This document shows positions 3,186 through 28,582 of a stretch of 51,082 nucleotides of DNA, piece by piece. The notes under the pieces are model-generated. The model had not been told where the DNA came from. It was given only the letters and a program-made list of their open reading frames with translations, and made no database searches. Source of the stretch: Erysipelotrichaceae bacterium (GTDB lineage: Bacteria; Bacillota_I; Bacilli_A; Erysipelotrichales; Erysipelotrichaceae). Numbering within the stretch: position 1 is the stretch's first letter; each line of letters starts with the position of its first letter. A program made the position numbers and the translations under genes. The stretch lies in NCBI GenBank assembly GCA_030528645.1, contig JAUMYM010000007.1, forward strand, positions 1-51,082. The letters run 5' to 3'.

Positions 3186-3191
3186 TTAGAT

Positions 3192-3388
3192 AAAGCGATG
3201 AAAAGAAGTAGTAAAATTAAATTTTTTTGTAGAGAGTCTATGGTTGGTGAAAATAGATAAAGAATTGATTTGAACTTATCGATGGAGCTGAGTGATCCGT
3301 GAACCTGCGTTAATGGAAGAGTTGTGTGTCTTAGACATAAACTAAGGTGGTACCGCGATGATTCGTCCTTAGAGGTACTTTTTTTATT
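3192..3388 (+). promoter_or_regulatory. T-box riboswitch, leucine type, with terminator
   Basis: The leader holds the conserved T-box AAGGTGGTACCGCG at 3344-3357, which pairs with the uncharged tRNA acceptor end region. Upstream are the AGTAGTAA start, the GGTTGGTG region and the GAAnnnATC...GGAG context around the specifier. The specifier codon reads CTT (3275-3277), a leucine codon, which agrees with leuS downstream. CTAAGG (3342-3347) pairs with CCTTAG (3367-3372) to form the terminator, followed by TTTTTTT near 3379-3385. Uncharged tRNA-Leu should stabilise the antiterminator and switch leuS on. This leader accounts for the whole gap between ytqA and leuS. Confidence 0.92.
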
Positions 3389-3402: not shown

Positions 3403-5793
3403 ATGAGTTATAATCATTTGGAAATTGAGAAGAAGTGGCAAGAATACTGGCAAAAACATCAGACATTCTATACAGATGTTCATGATTTTAGTAAGCCAAA
3501 ATACTATGCATTGGATATGTTTCCATATCCTAGTGGTGTAGGTTTACATGCAGGGCATCCAGAAGGCTATACAGCTACAGATATTATTTGTCGTAAAAAA
3601 CGTATGGAAGGCTATAATGTATTGCATCCAATGGGCTTTGATAGCTTTGGTTTGCCTGCAGAGCAATATGCGATTGCCACAGGAAATCATCCAGCTTCTT
3701 TTACAGAAAAAAATATTGAAACCTTCCGCCAACAATTAAAAATCTTGGGATTTTCTTATGATTGGAGCAAAGAAATATCTACTTGTGATCCTTCGTTTTA
3801 TAAATGGACCCAATGGATTTTTAAAAAACTATTTGAAGCTAATTTAGCGAAATGTATTGAGATGCCTGTGAATTGGTGTGAAGCCTTAGGGACAGTTTTA
3901 GCTAATGATGAAGTGATTGATGGTAAAAGTGAACGAGGGAATCATCCAGTTGTACGTAAGATGATGAAACAATGGGTAATTGATATTGTAGCGTATGCGG
4001 AAAAGCTATTAGATGGTTTAGAAGAAATTGATTGGCCAGAATCAACCAAGGAAATGCAAAGAAATTGGATTGGTAAATCACAAGGGGCTATTATTCATTT
4101 CAAAGTAGATAATAGTGTAGAACAATTTGATGTATTTTCAACTAGACCGGATACATTGTTTGGTGCAACTTTTTGTGTGTTAGCACCAGAACATCCGTTA
4201 GTGGATACTATTACAACTCAAGAGTATCGAGAGGCTGTAAAAGAATATAAAGAATATGCAAGTTTAAAGAGTGACATTGAACGAAATGATACTACAAAAG
4301 AAAAAACAGGTGTCTTTACAGGAGCCTATGCCATTAATCCTGTGAATCAAAAATTAATCCCTATCTGGATTAGTGACTATGTCTTGTTAAGCTATGGAAG
4401 TGGGGCAGTCATGGCTGTTCCTGCACATGATCAAAGAGATTATGAATTTGCCAAAACATTTGATTTAAATATTATTCCGGTGATTGAAGGAGATATTTCT
4501 ACGCAAGCAAATTCTAATGATGGAGTGTATATCAATTCAGAGTTTTTAAATGGTATGCATAAAGAACAAGCTGTTTCAGCAATGATTGAATATCTTCAAC
4601 AACATAAGTTAGGTTATCCTAAAGTGAATTATCGTTTACGTGAATGGATTTTTGCTCGTCAACGCTATTGGGGAGAACCAATTCCAGTAATCTTGGTGGA
4701 TGGACGTGAATATGTCACTTTAAAAGACGAAGATTTACCTCTTATTCTTCCAGAGTTGAAAGATTACAGTCCATTAAATGGACAATCTCCTTTATCACAA
4801 GCTAGTCAATGGTTACATGTATCCATTGATGGTAAAAAGGGGATTCGAGAAACAAGTACAATGCCAGGTTCCGCTGGTAGTAGTTGGTATTTCTTGCGTT
4901 ATATTGACCCTAACAATGAACATGCTTTAGCGGATTATGACTTATTAAAACATTGGTTACCAGTGGATTTATATATCGGTGGTCCAGAACATGCGGTAGG
5001 ACATTTACTGTATGCTCGTATGTGGAATCATTTCTTATATGATCAAGGTGTTGTTCCAGTAAAAGAACCATTTAAAAAATTAATACATCAAGGTATGATT
5101 TTAGGTGCGAATGGAATTAAGATGGGAAAACGTTTCCCAGAGTTTGTCGTTGATCCAAATGTCATTGTAAAAGAATATGGTGCAGATACATTAAGAATCT
5201 ATGAAATGTTTATGGGACCATTAGAAGCTAGCAAACCATGGAATGATCAAGGGGTTGAGGCTTCTCGCAAGTGGTTGGAACGTGTGTATCGTTTGATTAT
5301 GGAAATGGATAAACTAACAGATGAAAATGATCATAAACTAGATTATATTTATAACTACACAGTGAAGAAAGTATCAGAAGATATTGAACAGTTAAATTTG
5401 AACACAGCGATTTCACAAATGATGATTTTCATTAACGAATGTTATAAACAAGATAAAATCTATAAAGAATATATTTTAAATTTCATAAAAATGCTTTCAT
5501 GTTTTGCACCACATCTTGGTGAAGAGATGTATCATCATTTAACAAATGAAGCAACCATTGCTTATCAACCTTGGCCAGAGTATGATGAAAGTAAGCTTGT
5601 ATTAGAAGAAATTGAAATTGTAATACAAATCAATGGAAAATTAAGAGGCAAGTTTAAGGGTAGTCCAAATGAGCAAGAAGATACACTAAAACAAATTGCT
5701 TTACAACATCCATTGATTCAAAGTTACATTGAAGGCAAAGAAATTAAAAAGATGTTTGTGATTAAAGGACGTGTCATTAATATCGTAGTCTAA
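3403..5793 (+). CDS. leuS: Leucyl-tRNA synthetase
   Basis: A 796-residue class Ia synthetase that charges tRNA-Leu with leucine. The HIGH-type motif is HAGHPEG near residue 50. The CP1 editing domain shows [12 protein letters not shown] and [18 protein letters not shown]. The leucine-specific insert and the anticodon and C-terminal domains follow, ending in the GKLRGK block. The KMSKS loop is altered: residues 573-577 read KMGKR. The two lysines are kept but the serines are replaced. Its length is slightly under the usual 800-860. AGGAGG precedes ATG 3403. Expression is controlled by the leucine T-box just upstream; scpA follows after 14 bases. Confidence 0.97.
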
Positions 5794-7907: not shown

Positions 7908-8319
7908 CAGTTTATTACTATGTTTACTGGTAGGTTGCAGTAATACCAAAAAAATAAATATGTCAGAAACGGCGATAAAAATTATAAAGACTTATGGTTT
8001 AAACCTAGCTTCTGTAAGAGATGATGTCTTTGATACTATTTATTTTTTAGATAAAGATAGTATTATTGACCGCATTATCTATATTGACCCTTTAAGTCGT
8101 GCCGATCATATAGCTATTATGGAAGTAAAAGATTATAAAAAGGTGGAAGCCGACATTAAAAAGAGTTTAGAAATATTTCGTAGAAATTATGAATCTTATT
8201 TACCTGAAGAAATTAGTAAGATTGAAAAATATCAATTAGAGGTAGTAGGAAATTATGTTTTTATTATTGTAAGTGATAAGGAAAATATTGATGTATCCAA
8301 GTGTATTGTATACGAATAG
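7885..8319 (+). CDS. DUF4358-like lipoprotein
   Basis: A 144-residue protein with signal peptide and lipobox LVGC. The body has the pattern I associate with DUF4358: a hydrophobic strand with IAIMEVKD, then a helix VEADIKKSLEIFRRNYESY, and a final strand GNYVFIIVSD. No enzymatic motif is visible and the function is unknown. ATG 7885 is preceded by AAAGGGAG and overlaps the end of the SGNH gene by 23 bases, so the two are coupled. An in-frame TTG at 7870 has no ribosome site. No clear terminator follows before the purine riboswitch. Confidence 0.7.
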   Translation: MKKFIVISSLLLCLLVGCSNTKKINMSETAIKIIKTYGLNLASVRDDVFDTIYFLDKDSIIDRIIYIDPLSRADHIAIMEVKDYKKVEADIKKSLEIFRRNYESYLPEEISKIEKYQLEVVGNYVFIIVSDKENIDVSKCIVYE

Positions 8320-8384
8320 ATTGATATTTTTAGATTGAAAAAAATTAAGAATATGATAATATAAATATGTAATGTTTATTACAT

Positions 8385-8485
8385 TTACTTGTATAGGTGT
8401 CAAATTTTGGCTGACATGTTTCTACCCACTTGCCGAAAGTGGACTACAAGTAACCTTTTCCCCGTGATGGAAATGTTGACACCTA
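8385..8485 (+). promoter_or_regulatory. Purine riboswitch (guanine type) upstream of purC
   Basis: P1 is a perfect 9-bp helix, TTACTTGTA (8385-8393) with TACAAGTAA (8445-8453). P2 is TGTCA with TGACA and has a TTTTGG loop. J2/3 reads GTTTCTACC exactly as in known aptamers. P3 is CACT/AGTG with a TGCCGAA loop, and J3/1 is GACTAC. The specificity base is C8444, the equivalent of C74, so guanine or hypoxanthine is expected. J1/2 reads TAGG instead of the usual TAAT. TAGGTGTCAA (8394-8403) can instead pair over 10 bp with TTGACACCTA (8476-8485), which would destroy P2. This is the likely switch helix. How it affects the downstream ribosome site or hairpin is unclear. Confidence 0.85.
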
Positions 8486-8501
8486 ATGTTGGAGGATTTT
8501 T

Positions 8502-8525
8502 ATGGAAAAGGAAATGAACCAATAG
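8502..8525 (+). CDS. Possible leader peptide MEKEMNQ
   Basis: ATG 8502 is placed 6 bases after GGAGG (8491-8495), as strong a ribosome site as any in the window, yet the frame stops at TAG after seven codons. It lies between the purine aptamer and the hairpin before purC. The composition shows no run of one amino acid that would suggest classical attenuation. It may couple ribosome movement to the hairpin ten bases downstream, or be a remnant of a deleted gene. Confidence 0.45.
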
Positions 8526-8534
8526 ATTATTTTC

Positions 8535-8570
8535 GCATATTGTTTTTACAGTATGCATTTTTATTTTATT
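8535..8570 (+). terminator. Hairpin with U-rich tail before purC
   Basis: GCATATTG (8535-8542) pairs with CAGTATGC (8549-8556), 8 bp with one G-T pair, around TTTTTA. ATTTTTATTTTATT follows, and the purC ribosome site comes at once. The stem is AT-rich and weak. It could be a conditional terminator controlled by the riboswitch or by translation of the mini-ORF. Confidence 0.45.
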
Positions 8571-8583
8571 AGGAGGATACCAG

Positions 8584-9285
8584 ATGAAATTACTTTACGA
8601 AGGAAAAGCAAAACAGATTTATACAACCGATGATCCAAATCAAATTATTATTCACTACAAAGATGATGCAACTGCTGGAAATGGTGTAAAAAAAGGAACT
8701 ATTGAAAATAAAGGTATTTTAAACAATAAAATATCAGCATTGATTTATACGTACTTGATGAAACATGGGGTTAAAACACATTTTATTAAAGAGTTAAATG
8801 AACGTGATCAATTGGCTTATAAAGTAGAAATCCTACCTCTTGAAGTCATTTGTCGAAATGTCATTGCAGGAAGTGCAGCTGCTCGTTATAAAATTCCGGA
8901 AGGAACAAAGATTGATCAGCCAATTTATGAAATTTGTTGGAAGAATGATGATTTAGGAGATCCTTTAATTGCGGATAACCATGCGATTGCTTTTAAATTA
9001 GCGACAAAAGAAGAGTTGGTTTATATTTATGAAGAAACAGATAAGATTAATAAATTACTTATTGAATTCTTTAAAACAATGGGGATTAACTTAATTGATT
9101 TTAAATTAGAGTTTGGACGACTAAAAGATGGACAAATCGTGTTAGCTGATGAAATATCACCGGATACATGTCGTCTATGGGATAGTCAAACAAATGAAAA
9201 GCTAGATAAAGATCGTTTCCGTAGAGATCTTGGTAATATTGAAGAAGCATATCATGAAATCTTAAAACGCTTGACCGGGAAATAA
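8584..9285 (+). CDS. purC: SAICAR synthetase
   Basis: A 233-residue ATP-dependent ligase joining CAIR and aspartate to give SAICAR in purine synthesis. Typical blocks are [11 protein letters not shown], the TAGNG loop, [13 protein letters not shown], and [14 protein letters not shown] near the C-terminus. The length is normal for the short bacterial form. AGGAGG lies just before ATG 8584. It is the first gene of purC-purF-purB under the guanine-type riboswitch. Other de novo purine genes (purE, K, L, Q, S, M, N, H, D) are not in this window. Confidence 0.97.
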
Positions 9286-9288
9286 TCC

Positions 9289-10698
9289 ATGTACAAGATT
9301 AAGGAGTATGATTTACCGGGTAAAATCAATGAAGAATGTGGTGTTTTTGGTGTCTATGATGTCGAAGATGCCAGTAGTATTACATATTACGGATTACACG
9401 CTTTACAACATCGTGGTCAAGAGGCTGCTGGTATTGCAAGTAGTGATGATGTACATATTCAATGTATAAAAGGTAAAGGATTGATACAAGAAGTCTTTAC
9501 AGCAGAAACTGTGAAAAAGTTAAACGGTATTTCTGCAGTTGGACATGTTCGTTATTCTTCAAAAGGTAATAATGAATTGGAAAATATTCAACCATTGATG
9601 GTACGAGCACATACCGGGCATTTTGCTGTGGTACATAATGGTCAGATTGTAAATGCCATGGAATTAAAAATTGCTTTAGAAAATACCGGTAGTATCTTTC
9701 AGGGAACTTCTGATTCTGAAATTTTAGTTCACTTAATACAGAAGCATTCCGGAAATATGGTTGCGAAGATTACCAAAGCATGTAATATGTTAGAGGGAGC
9801 TTTTGCGTTCATTATTCTAACAAAAGATTGTATGTTTGCTATACGTGATAAAAATGGACTTCGTCCACTTTCACTTGGTAAGATGAAAGATGGATATTGT
9901 ATTAGTAGTGAAACATGTGCTTTTGATGTGGTTGGCGCTCAGTTTATTCGTGATTTAAAACCGGGTGAGCTACTTAGAATTGATCATAAAGAAGTACAAT
10001 CGTTTCAATATACAACGATGACACAAAAGAAAATGTGTGCAATGGAATATGTTTATTTTGCTCGACCGGATAGTGTGATTGAAGGATTAAATGTACACAA
10101 TGCACGTAAAAAAGCTGGTAAATTGCTTGCTCAGATTGATGGCAAGGAACATGATGTATCCGGTGATATTGTAATTGGAGTTCCAGATTCTTCTCTTTCA
10201 GCAGCGATTGGTTATGCAGAGGAAAGCAAACTCCCTTATGAAATGGGGTTAATTAAAAATCGTTATATTGCTCGAACATTTATACAGCCTACACAAGCGC
10301 AACGTGAAAATGGGGTACGTATGAAATTAAGTGCAGTTTCCTCAATTGTCAATGGAAAAAGGATTATTTTAATTGATGATTCTATTGTACGAGGTACAAC
10401 AATTAAGCGTATTATAAAAATTTTAAAAGATGCCGGTGCAATTGAGATACATGTTCGCATTGCTTCAGCACCATTTGTCAGTCCGTGTTTTTACGGGGTG
10501 GATACAACAGATTATCATGAATTAATTGCACATAAGATGAGTGTTGAAGAGTTAAAAGAGTATATTCAAGCGGATAGCTTAAAATTTATTACTATTGAAC
10601 AAATGTATGAAATACATGGTAAAGATTTATGCCTAGCTTGTTTTAGTAAGCAATATCCAACCGAATTATTTCAACATCAAAAAGAAATAGAAGAATAG
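9289..10698 (+). CDS. purF: Amidophosphoribosyltransferase
   Basis: A 469-residue enzyme making phosphoribosylamine from PRPP and glutamine, the committed step of purine synthesis. The class II glutaminase cysteine is Cys17 in EECGVFG; the 16 residues before it would be removed as a propeptide, as in Bacillus. The PRPP-binding loop is [13 protein letters not shown]. Cysteines in MCAMEY, SPCFYG and LCLACF match the ligand positions of the oxygen-sensitive iron-sulfur form from B. subtilis. It starts 3 bases after purC with a poor ribosome site, so it probably depends on coupling to purC. Confidence 0.97.
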
Positions 10699-10706
10699 GA
10701 GTATGT

Positions 10707-12002
10707 ATGTTAAATCGTTATTCAAGGGAATGTATTAGAAATGTTTGGAGTGAAGAACATAAGTTTCAAGTATATCTAAATGTAGAATTACTTGCTTGTA
10801 AGGCATGGCAACAGTTGGGCTTAATTCCGGAAAAAGATATAGAAACGTTATATAAAAATGCTCGTTTTGATTTGAATCGTATTTATGAAATAGAACAAGA
10901 AACAAAACATGATGTTGTGGCATTTACTAGAGCGGTAAGTGAGACTTTAGAAGAAGAAAAAAAATGGATACATTATGGTTTAACAAGTACAGATGTTGTT
11001 GATACTGCATATGGATGTCTATATAAAGAAGCCAATGATATTTTACAAGAGGATTTATATGCGTTTATTGCTATTTTAAAAAGACAAGCCTTAAAGTATA
11101 AAGATACTCCATGTATGGGGAGAACGCATGGTGTACATGCAGAGATTACAACATTTGGATTAAAATTTGCGCTTTGGTATGATGAATTTCAACGTCATCT
11201 ACATCGCTTTGAACAAGCACGTACGATGATTGAAGTAGGTAAAATTAGTGGTGCTGTAGGGACATTTGCTAATACACCACCATTTGTTCAAGATTATGTG
11301 TGTAAGGAGCTAGGTATTCAATCTGCTAAAATTTCAACACAAGTTTTACAACGCGATCGTCATGCTCAATACTTTTCAACGTTAGCTTTGATTGCTTCAT
11401 CAATTGAAAAAATAGCGACTGAAATTCGTCACTTACAAAGAACAGAAGTCAGAGAAGTCGAAGAATATTTTAATAAAGGACAAAAAGGTTCAAGTGCAAT
11501 GCCACATAAACGCAACCCGATTGGTAGTGAAAATATGTGTGGATGTGCACGTGTTATGCGTGGATATATGATGTCAAGTTTTGATGATATCCCCTTATGG
11601 CATGAACGTGATATTTCTCATTCAAGTGTCGAACGTATTATTGCTCCTGATGCGACTGCTCTTTTAGATTATATGCTTACACGTTTTGCTAAAATACTAG
11701 ATACATTAACGGTTTTTGAAGATACGATGCATGATAATATTTATAAGACGTATGGAGTCATTTTTTCTCAACGTTTTATGTTAAAACTGGTAGAGAAAGG
11801 CTTATCAAGAGAACACGCTTATGATATTGTCCAACCAAATGCGATTCAATCTTGGCAAAATAAAGAAAGTTTTAAGACATTAATGCAAAATCATGAAGTA
11901 GTGAAAGAGATATTATCGCAAGAAGATATTGAAGATTGTTTTAATCTACAACATCATATAAAAAATGTGGATGAAATCTACAAACGAGTTGGCTTACTTT
12001 GA
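10707..12002 (+). CDS. purB: Adenylosuccinate lyase
   Basis: A 431-residue fumarase-superfamily enzyme that cleaves SAICAR to AICAR and adenylosuccinate to AMP, each with release of fumarate. The flexible signature loop is [11 protein letters not shown]. The helix blocks [11 protein letters not shown] and [15 protein letters not shown] carry catalytic histidines. TAGGAG precedes ATG 10707. It follows purF by 8 bases, so purC-F-B form one transcript. The product of PurC is one of its substrates, and PurA, encoded next door on the other strand, supplies the other. Confidence 0.97.
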
Positions 12003-17539: not shown

Positions 17540-17636
17540 TGTTGCAAGCACTTTGTGTTTTTTGCAACCGCTCAAGTAAGGTAATAAGTGCGTAAGCCAC
17601 CTTGATTTGGCGAGTCTAATTAAATAGAAAAAGGAG
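17540..17636 (+). ncRNA. Ribosomal protein L21 leader RNA
   Basis: The leader before rplU holds a long hairpin in which GTTGCAA (17541-17547) pairs with TTGCAAC (17562-17568), with GCAC/GTGT nested inside. It is followed by CTCAAGTAAGG and a second set of paired bases around GTAAGCCACCTTGATTTGGC. Position and shape match the L21 leader family of Firmicutes, thought to bind L21 and repress its own operon. A covariance-model search (RF00559) would settle it. Confidence 0.7.
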
Positions 17637-27910: not shown

Positions 27911-28237
27911 ATGAATAAGTTGAATTTAAATGAACAAATCATATTAGATAAAGAGTTTAATATTGAATTTAAAGGTTACAGTGCAAGTGAAGTAGATGGA
28001 TTTTTAGACCTTGTCTTACAAGACTATCAAGTGTTTAAAGAGATGCTTTCAGAGTATGAGCAAAAGATTACACTTCTAGAAAGTGAAAAAGCAAATTTAA
28101 AAGCTCGTATTATTGAAATGGAAGGCAAACAGAAGATGCAAGATTTATATGCCACTGCAAGTAATAACTTTAGTTCTGTTGATTTAATTAAACGTGTTTC
28201 ACGTCTAGAACAAGAAATAAAAGAATTAAAAAAATAA
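27911..28237 (+). CDS. gpsB: Cell division protein GpsB
   Basis: A 108-residue DivIVA-like coiled-coil protein that recruits PBP1 between division site and side wall. The N-terminal lipid/PBP-binding domain has ILDKEFNIEFKGYSASEVDGFLDLVLQDY in outline, followed by a heptad region (QKITLLESEKANLKARI) and the C-terminal trimer helix VDLIKRVSRLEQEI. The start is ATG 27911 or ATG 27899; neither has a strong ribosome site. Being next to ponA and rnpB is the Bacillus layout. The stop codon overlaps the first bases of rnpB. Confidence 0.92.
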   Translation: MNKLNLNEQIILDKEFNIEFKGYSASEVDGFLDLVLQDYQVFKEMLSEYEQKITLLESEKANLKARIIEMEGKQKMQDLYATASNNFSSVDLIKRVSRLEQEIKELKK

Positions 28238-28582
28238 CACTTAGGCAATCGCTGATAGTAATCTATTAGAGGAAAGTCCATGCTCGCATAATCTGAGATG
28301 ATTATAGTGTTTGTGCTAACTTAAAAAATAAGGTTAGACAGGGTAACCTGATGGCTGCAAGTGATTCTAAGGTTTTATAACTATGAAAAACTGCTATAAA
28401 AGTGTCAAAGAGACGATAAGCTAGGAAACTGGTGATGTGGAACGTGATAAACCCCACAAGCGAGAAACCCAAATTTGGTAGGGGAACTTAAAATATTGAA
28501 ATGAAAATAGTTTAGGACACAGTAATGTGTAGATAAATGATTGCCACCTTCGTGGTACAGAACATGGCTTATAAAGTGTTAT
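28235..28582 (+). ncRNA. rnpB: RNase P RNA
   Basis: The catalytic RNA that matures tRNA 5' ends. P1 pairs TAACACTT (28235-28242) with AAGTGTTA (28574-28581). Conserved blocks are in order: AGAGGAAAGTCCATGCTC, GCGAGAAACCCAAATTTGG, TAGGGGAAC and ACAGAACATGGCTTA. The shape is close to the Bacillus type B RNA. It lies directly after gpsB; its promoter must be inside gpsB. The gap between gpsB and rodZ is fully explained by this RNA, its terminator and the rodZ promoter. Confidence 0.96.

Follow-up and report, generated by a model that had tools for sequence, protein, structure and literature searches.

Riboswitch platforms are usually sorted by their target, be it the terminator of the gene, its ribosome site or an antisense RNA. 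Purine riboswitches of the Bacillus subtilis xpt kind work through a terminator/antiterminator platform, and in the ampC and pyrBI attenuators of Escherichia coli it is a ribosome near the terminator that prevents termination. A B12 riboswitch in Mycobacterium tuberculosis ppe2, according to the portion of the report considered here, controls the translated leader uPPE2, on which expression of PPE2 depends, chiefly through termination-reinitiation (PMC11260477). Bacillus bmrB-bmrCD is presented, in the sections considered, as a case of ribosome-mediated transcription attenuation with a leader peptide (PMC4191407). A riboswitch survey distinguishes, in the sections considered, five mechanisms, none with a leader ORF (PMC2258182), the word purine is absent from the main text of a study of leader peptides in Firmicutes (PMC2965389), and the excerpts considered of two further papers contain no purine riboswitch that acts through a leader ORF (PMC8632094, PMC9295807). 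Such a riboswitch was not found, by title or beginning of the abstract, in the open-access literature searched, and riboswitch output via a leader mini-ORF in Bacilli is, as far as this literature shows, undescribed.

The locus described here lies in a window of 51,082 nucleotides (the whole stretch of DNA that was analysed, from an Erysipelotrichaceae bacterium), and all its features are on the forward strand. It is the leader between a lipoprotein-like gene that ends at 8319 and purC (8584-9285), the first gene after the leader, which presumably encodes SAICAR synthetase, judging by the family motif YEGKAKQ. The next gene (9289-10698) is taken to be purF, for amidophosphoribosyltransferase, on account of its motif NEECGVFG, and the third (10707-12002) is presumably purB-like, for adenylosuccinate lyase, judging by its sequence. 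A weak candidate promoter (hexamers TTGAAA and TAATAT, the latter preceded by TG; 8335-8362) lies 5' of the aptamer, and as four promoter-like sites were found against a shuffle mean of 6.3, it is no evidence by itself. Three purine aptamers occur in the host genome, whose 1.38 Mb are spread over 28 contigs, and the purE leader there (L003) carries an ordinary terminator and no mini-ORF. Elsewhere in the window, a T-box leader (3189-3373, 109 bits) precedes a gene at 3403 that we take to be leucyl-tRNA synthetase-like, and an RNase P class B RNA (28237-28576) and an L21 leader (17556-17627) score above the Rfam cut-offs; all three look ordinary.

The initial annotation had proposed a guanine-type aptamer, a 10-bp alternative helix, a strongly initiated mini-ORF and a U-tailed hairpin close to the purC ribosome site, and all four hold up. 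The predicted aptamer (8385-8453) rests on its fold and on a match to RF00167 (8369-8466; 53.1 bits versus a curated Rfam cut-off of 37); it also scores 97.0 bits against our covariance model R1, which was built partly from this very sequence. The P1-P3 junction is complete (P1 8385-8393/8445-8453, P2 8397-8402/8412-8417, P3 8426-8431/8437-8442), and fold and alignment also place the GG of L2 (8409-8410) and the CC of L3 (8433-8434), which we take to form the loop-loop contact, and a C at position 8444, presumably the base that specifies guanine. The alternative helix joins 8394-8403, that is, the joining region and the 5' side of P2, to 8476-8485; it is perfect over its 10 bp and has an equal of at least 10 bp with the aptamer in just 6 of 3000 mononucleotide-shuffled spacers.

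The mini-ORF encodes MEKEMNQ in seven codons, from the ATG at 8502 to the TAG ending at 8525, and is led by the Shine-Dalgarno (SD) sequence GGAGG (8491-8495; duplex energy with the anti-SD -9.3 kcal/mol). The view that no helix sequestering a ribosome site follows the aptamer had to be given up. In the minimum-energy fold a strand that begins directly 3' of P1 (8454-8474) pairs with 8496-8511, the segment that carries the mini-ORF AUG: CCUUUUCC (8454-8461) pairs with GGAAAAGG (8504-8511) and AUGGAAAU (8467-8474) with AUUUUUAU (8496-8503), giving an interrupted helix of 16 bp that covers the start codon. Because the 5' strand of this anti-start helix sits in the loop of the 10-bp helix, the two helices are, on paper and pseudoknots aside, mutually exclusive.

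The mini-ORF stops 9 nt 5' of a terminator stem-loop (8535-8556, -9.5 kcal/mol) with the U-rich tail ATTTTTATTTT (8557-8567), so that the locus has an SD-led ORF ending at an intrinsic terminator. Between 8000 and 9000 the consensus scan picked out this hairpin and no further terminator-like site (shuffle mean 0.3). The description of the hairpin as weak is apt for its three G-C pairs but not for its energy, which falls within the range of -6.1 to -18.8 kcal/mol seen in 20 comparable leaders. Before 8535 the locus has no terminator of -5.9 kcal/mol or better, nor one that adjoins P1 and is excluded by an anti-P1 strand; a separate script returned a weak hairpin (8459-8496, -4.0 kcal/mol) that overlaps the SD of the mini-ORF. 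The purC gene has a strong SD of its own (8571-8576) ahead of its ATG at 8584 and starts 58 nt after the mini-ORF stop, with the terminator in between, and there is no overlap between stop and next start of the uPPE2 type.

On balance, we lean towards a model in which a guanine riboswitch gates the start of the mini-ORF, and the terminator just 3' of it converts this gating into control over transcription of purC-purF-purB. In the guanine-bound RNA, P1 and P2 would hold, leaving the 3' strand of the 10-bp helix without a partner. The strand 8454-8474 would then pair with 8496-8511 and hide the mini-ORF start, no ribosome would load, and the hairpin at 8535-8556 would terminate transcription. 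Without guanine, the 10-bp helix 8394-8403/8476-8485 would form first, take P2 apart and trap the anti-start strand in its loop, so that SD and AUG would stay open. A ribosome could then translate the seven codons and, at or near the stop behind RNA polymerase, hinder the hairpin, allowing purC to be transcribed. The sequences themselves show the elements, their exclusion of one another on paper and the repeated pairing of mini-ORF and terminator in related purine leaders. We infer that the ligand binds, that the helices fold in this order, that the mini-ORF is translated and that the ribosome acts as antiterminator, and regard a guanine switch with a mini-ORF/terminator output as a likely but unproven mechanism.

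Purine leaders of other genomes bear on how general this arrangement is. Within the family, 29 and 30 loci were taken from score-ranked matches and 60 were picked by hand; outside the family, 28 loci came from score-ranked matches and 40 were hand-picked. The sets of 29 and 28 are the best-scoring of the matches listed, with weaker matches lying outside them. From 123 family loci, 12 without a located core, 10 with a weak P1 and 4 without a gene were removed, leaving 97; the screen covered 92 distinct leaders among these, none longer than 330 nt. Motifs assigned 44 distinct family leaders, among those fetched, to purC, purE or purF; 23 of these measure 42-95 nt and 21 measure 128-227 nt. As a unit we counted an ATG mini-ORF with an SD of -9 kcal/mol or better and a stop at most 13 nt before the last terminator stem, inside it or beyond it.

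Counting leaders before genes of whatever kind, 29 of the fetched family leaders are longer than 110 nt, and 22 of them have a qualifying terminator. The other seven were dropped (L037, L044, L045, L052, L054, L065 and L114), including L114, in which the script had misplaced the gene start although a mini-ORF is present. Among the family leaders fetched, the unit occurs in all 20 long leaders with a qualifying terminator before purC, purE or purF, and in neither of the two before other genes; shuffling predicts 0.26 occurrences in all 22 leaders tested. Outside the family, 68 loci less 6 without a core and 3 without a gene left 59, of which 31 were long and 29, with a terminator, were tested. 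Among these fetched leaders, 7 of 9 biosynthetic ones have the unit (0.10 expected), as do 2 of 20 others (0.12 expected). The latter two (L205 and L266) precede genes that we take to be permease-like and lipoprotein-like. Once a start codon is given, 15 of 18 leaders keep their frame free of stops until at most 10 nt remain to the stem (8.9 expected, P 0.0017; two near-duplicates removed). The limits of 10 and 13 nt were chosen after viewing the family leaders, the outside-family leaders had been screened once earlier with the same limits, and the leader sets are phylogenetically non-independent (Holdemania, the same-genus pair). Two families, f22 with four genomes and f7 with two, are too small for a covariation count. 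In a sister family the unit was found in none of 20 purE loci, which by pattern have no aptamer core in the upstream DNA fetched; this comparison is a weak control, as purE there seems to lie close behind another gene. The mini-ORF with its terminator is a real class, more general than the single window, and not an artefact. Long purine leaders of genus g3 (157-175 nt; L037, L038, L044, L045, L052, L054, L060 and L065) precede lipoprotein-like genes; none of the eight passed the screen for mini-ORF and terminator, and six have no qualifying terminator.

Sorted by eye, the leaders with the unit show two layouts. In the direct layout there is no clear terminator between aptamer and mini-ORF; its members are the window, the same-genus genome G001, L111 (Anaerorhabdus), L117 (genome E09), L118, in which a terminator-like hairpin overlaps the mini-ORF start, L125, and L112-L115 (Holdemania). 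In the tandem layout, with 11 leaders (for example L042, L049, L135 and L143), a hairpin comes first, often an ordinary riboswitch terminator. We considered a conserved regulatory peptide and rejected it, as MEKEMNQ, MGKEMNR, MEMERMNPEKEAKDPVLSAS, MLHNLKQNTSKL, MKKGPNQAQTSF and the others have no common pattern by eye; this is what one would expect if the act of translation counts and its product does not. Conservation in related genomes had been named as a check on the mini-ORF, and the answer is divided: the peptide sequence is not conserved, but presence, position and start strength are. Five purE leaders (L131, L138, L141, L143 and L183) have mini-ORFs that begin with MVLRR or MVLSR; in the modelled folds a small hairpin (UCUUACUUAUGGUCUUAAGAAGA in L131) contains their AUG and may account for this common beginning.

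The wider proposition is that purine riboswitches of biosynthetic operons in Bacilli recurrently gate ribosome loading on a mini-ORF of indifferent sequence, with the ribosome as antiterminator; to us its chances of being right or wrong seem about equal. It would have the same module served by different switching strands: the P2 strand in the window, the 3' strand of P1 in Anaerorhabdus and the E09 genome, and a dual anti-P1/anti-start strand in two other families. If it holds, such an operon would need low guanine and working ribosomes together, and ribosome and RNA polymerase would have to stay coupled on these leaders.

To assess switching, the ligand-free aptamer was compared with the fold in which P1 is forbidden along the growing transcript of 21 leaders. 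In all 21, the fold without P1 wins at its best point, by 2.9-12.5 kcal/mol; in the window, the fold containing 8476-8485 wins by 3.6 kcal/mol at transcript end 8486. When the transcript extends in full to +30, the bound fold wins even with no ligand (B-N -1.7), so that switching must be kinetic. The energy needed to open the start region of the mini-ORF in the window is 9.4-9.5 kcal/mol in the bound state versus 1.6-6.8 in the alternative, depending on transcript length, and the corresponding values are 10.1 versus 1.7-6.4 in G001, 11.0 versus 7.3 in L118 and, for the shortest transcripts, 11.6 versus 2.2 in Anaerorhabdus furcosa (L111) and 14.4 versus 2.2 in L125. For L117 we obtained 8.8-3.1 versus 0.9-1.3, with a reversal in the longest transcript, and for L115 7-8.5 versus 1.4-2, nearly equal in the longest transcript; L112-L114 gave no useful difference between the two states. 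The 11 tandem leaders are mixed. L136 and L139 have a clearly more closed start when bound, with a reversal in the longest transcript of L139. If the shortest transcripts are compared, the bound start is more closed by about 2-4 kcal/mol for L042, L049 and L129, whereas the remaining six show no difference or the opposite one. In the two other families, the bound state is computed to be more closed in 5 of 6 leaders, and the anti-P1 strand itself can be seen by eye to pair beside the mini-ORF AUG, for example as UUUUGUC/GACAAAA in L267. Shuffled spacers mask the start in the bound state as well as the real one in 23 of 200 cases for the window, which makes its masking unexceptional. The same count is 23 for L111, 11 for L118 and 2 for L125, and rises to 194 for L117 and 89-171 for Holdemania; in L117 and the three Holdemania leaders run, masking is below the shuffle mean.

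The effect of a ribosome on the terminator was modelled in 20 leaders by masking the RNA up to the stop plus 10 nt. With no ribosome present, folding favours the terminator in all 20 (P 0.63-0.99); in the window its P is 0.99 when the RNA 3' of P1 is folded. Placing a ribosome at the stop reduces P to 0.10 or less in 13 of 20 leaders and has no effect in four (three Holdemania leaders and L042); in L049 the frame reads through the hairpin and the mask is empty, so that its value is no test. In the window and G001 the ribosome lowers the terminator only from P 0.99 to 0.88 (window) and 0.88 (G001); the modelled ribosome overlaps the stem of the window by 1 nt, and as regards this step the window is among the less clear cases. 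Compensation could come, as we infer, from a ribosome close behind the polymerase, from a larger footprint or from losing the bottom G-C pair. Runaway transcription has B. subtilis as its model case. Such uncoupled transcription is suggested, in the part considered of a review, to be fairly widespread in bacteria, with a short distance between stop and terminator as a sign that polymerases outrun ribosomes (PMC7858274). If this view, as given there, applies here, the ribosome would arrive too late to act, and the short distance from stop to hairpin would be uninformative. In 12 of the 20 leaders the terminator that follows the mini-ORF has CATATT in its 5' arm, a recurrence that, from the sequences, suggests common descent or an unknown sequence constraint.

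The leader of G001 is nearly identical to that of the window, and its mini-ORF (MGKEMNR) differs by two A-to-G changes, which keep the frame, both alter an amino acid and change 2 of 7 residues; the one of the two that lies inside the anti-start helix turns U-A into U-G. A search for the 3' strand of P1 followed by CCTTTT in 315 genomes of the order found this pattern in nine. In eight of them the pattern precedes purC or purF, and the leader carries a mini-ORF with a strong start and, after it, a hairpin with a U tail (four genomes of genus g64, Holdemania, together with Anaerorhabdus furcosa, one uncultured genome and the two of the same genus). CCUUUU after P1 is common to purC/purF leaders of three other genera with a mini-ORF. 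The ninth, G243, has a hairpin and, in the stretch read, neither mini-ORF nor purine gene. R1, built from seven such aptamers, has matches in 66 of 272 family genomes; 10 of the 18 matches of at least 73 bits have the unit and eight do not, namely three of genus g21 (L116, L119 and L126) and five of genus g67, which have an ordinary terminator. The g21 leaders keep CCUUUUCC after P1 and have only a hairpin, and the stretch read contains neither a mini-ORF nor a purine gene; on this sequence evidence, CCUUUUCC may serve something else. These three, and also L096 and L108, are close aptamer relatives of genus g21 that keep CCUUUUCC, have a hairpin only and lack a purine gene in the DNA read; they are possibly orphan or antisense riboswitches. 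The occurrence of CCUUUUCC in relatives without a mini-ORF and the mixed tandem group slightly lower our trust in the model of a gated mini-ORF start and slightly raise that in its rivals.

The same two observations lend weight to another account, in which mini-ORF and terminator form a separate attenuator, placed behind the riboswitch, that senses general translation capacity, such as the supply of ribosomes or GTP, and is not controlled by the riboswitch through the mini-ORF start. It fits the ordinary terminators between aptamer and mini-ORF in L042, L049, L135 and L143, the clear start closure in only two of the 11 tandem leaders, and peptides that have no common pattern. We nevertheless think it rather unlikely. 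In the window and G001, with no clear terminator before the mini-ORF, it would leave the riboswitch without any other visible output; moreover, the anti-start strand abuts P1, the anti-P1 strand can pair beside the mini-ORF AUG in two other families, by eye and by computation, and the sister-family loci, for what this weak control is worth, show neither the unit nor, by pattern in the upstream DNA fetched, an aptamer core. Guanine might also act through RNA structure alone, with an incidental mini-ORF and a hairpin that is just a weak terminator, which is in keeping with the unconserved peptide, even within one genus, and with the fact that chance could give one leader a mini-ORF. Chance fails, however, for 20 of 20 family leaders and 7 of 9 outside, the terminator of the window is strongly favoured when no ribosome is present, and by eye no antiterminator for 8535-8543 exceeds 5-6 mostly A-U pairs, all of which makes this account improbable.

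Finally, the ribosome on the mini-ORF might act post-transcriptionally, by protecting the leader from nucleases or by delivering ribosomes to purC through reinitiation. As described in the part of the report considered, uPPE2-PPE2 is driven by termination-reinitiation (PMC11260477), but the gap of 58 nt, the strong SD of purC and the intervening terminator make such a role very improbable at our locus, and gap and SD led us to drop direct reinitiation from mini-ORF to purC. We return to the gated mini-ORF start, which the initial annotation had foreseen in suggesting that the riboswitch controls translation of the mini-ORF, which then decides termination. The anatomy and the recurrence of the unit before biosynthetic genes inside and outside the family fit this chain; its weak points are the 1-nt overlap of ribosome and stem, the shuffled spacers that mask as well and the three relatives with CCUUUUCC but no mini-ORF.

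If the model is correct, it joins ligand binding to ribosome-mediated attenuation, two control modes that are normally treated apart, and it makes purine synthesis answer to translation capacity as well; these leaders would, in addition, put transcription-translation coupling in these bacteria to the test. The aptamer, the expected OFF logic and the controlled genes for purine synthesis are shared with xpt-like purine riboswitches, but the leader in the window has no terminator adjoining P1, and its predicted switching helix is aimed at the start of the mini-ORF. With the ampC and pyrBI attenuators it would have in common that the presence of a ribosome near the terminator is the antitermination event, whereas the inputs there are growth rate or polymerase pausing, with no aptamer. 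As far as the sections considered describe it, bmrB-bmrCD has, as the model predicts for our locus, a small translated ORF and an intrinsic terminator ahead of its genes, with translation deciding read-through, but its input is antibiotics that target protein synthesis, in place of the predicted start access set by an aptamer (PMC4191407). The closest precedent, in the portion of the report considered, is the B12 riboswitch with uPPE2 (PMC11260477). There, too, the predicted role of the riboswitch is to cover the start region of a short ORF, and the downstream gene depends on translation of that ORF; the ligand and the phylum are different, the ORFs overlap, no intrinsic terminator between them appears in the description considered, Rho has been considered, and the ribosome passes on mainly by termination-reinitiation, where at purC it would act as the antiterminator.
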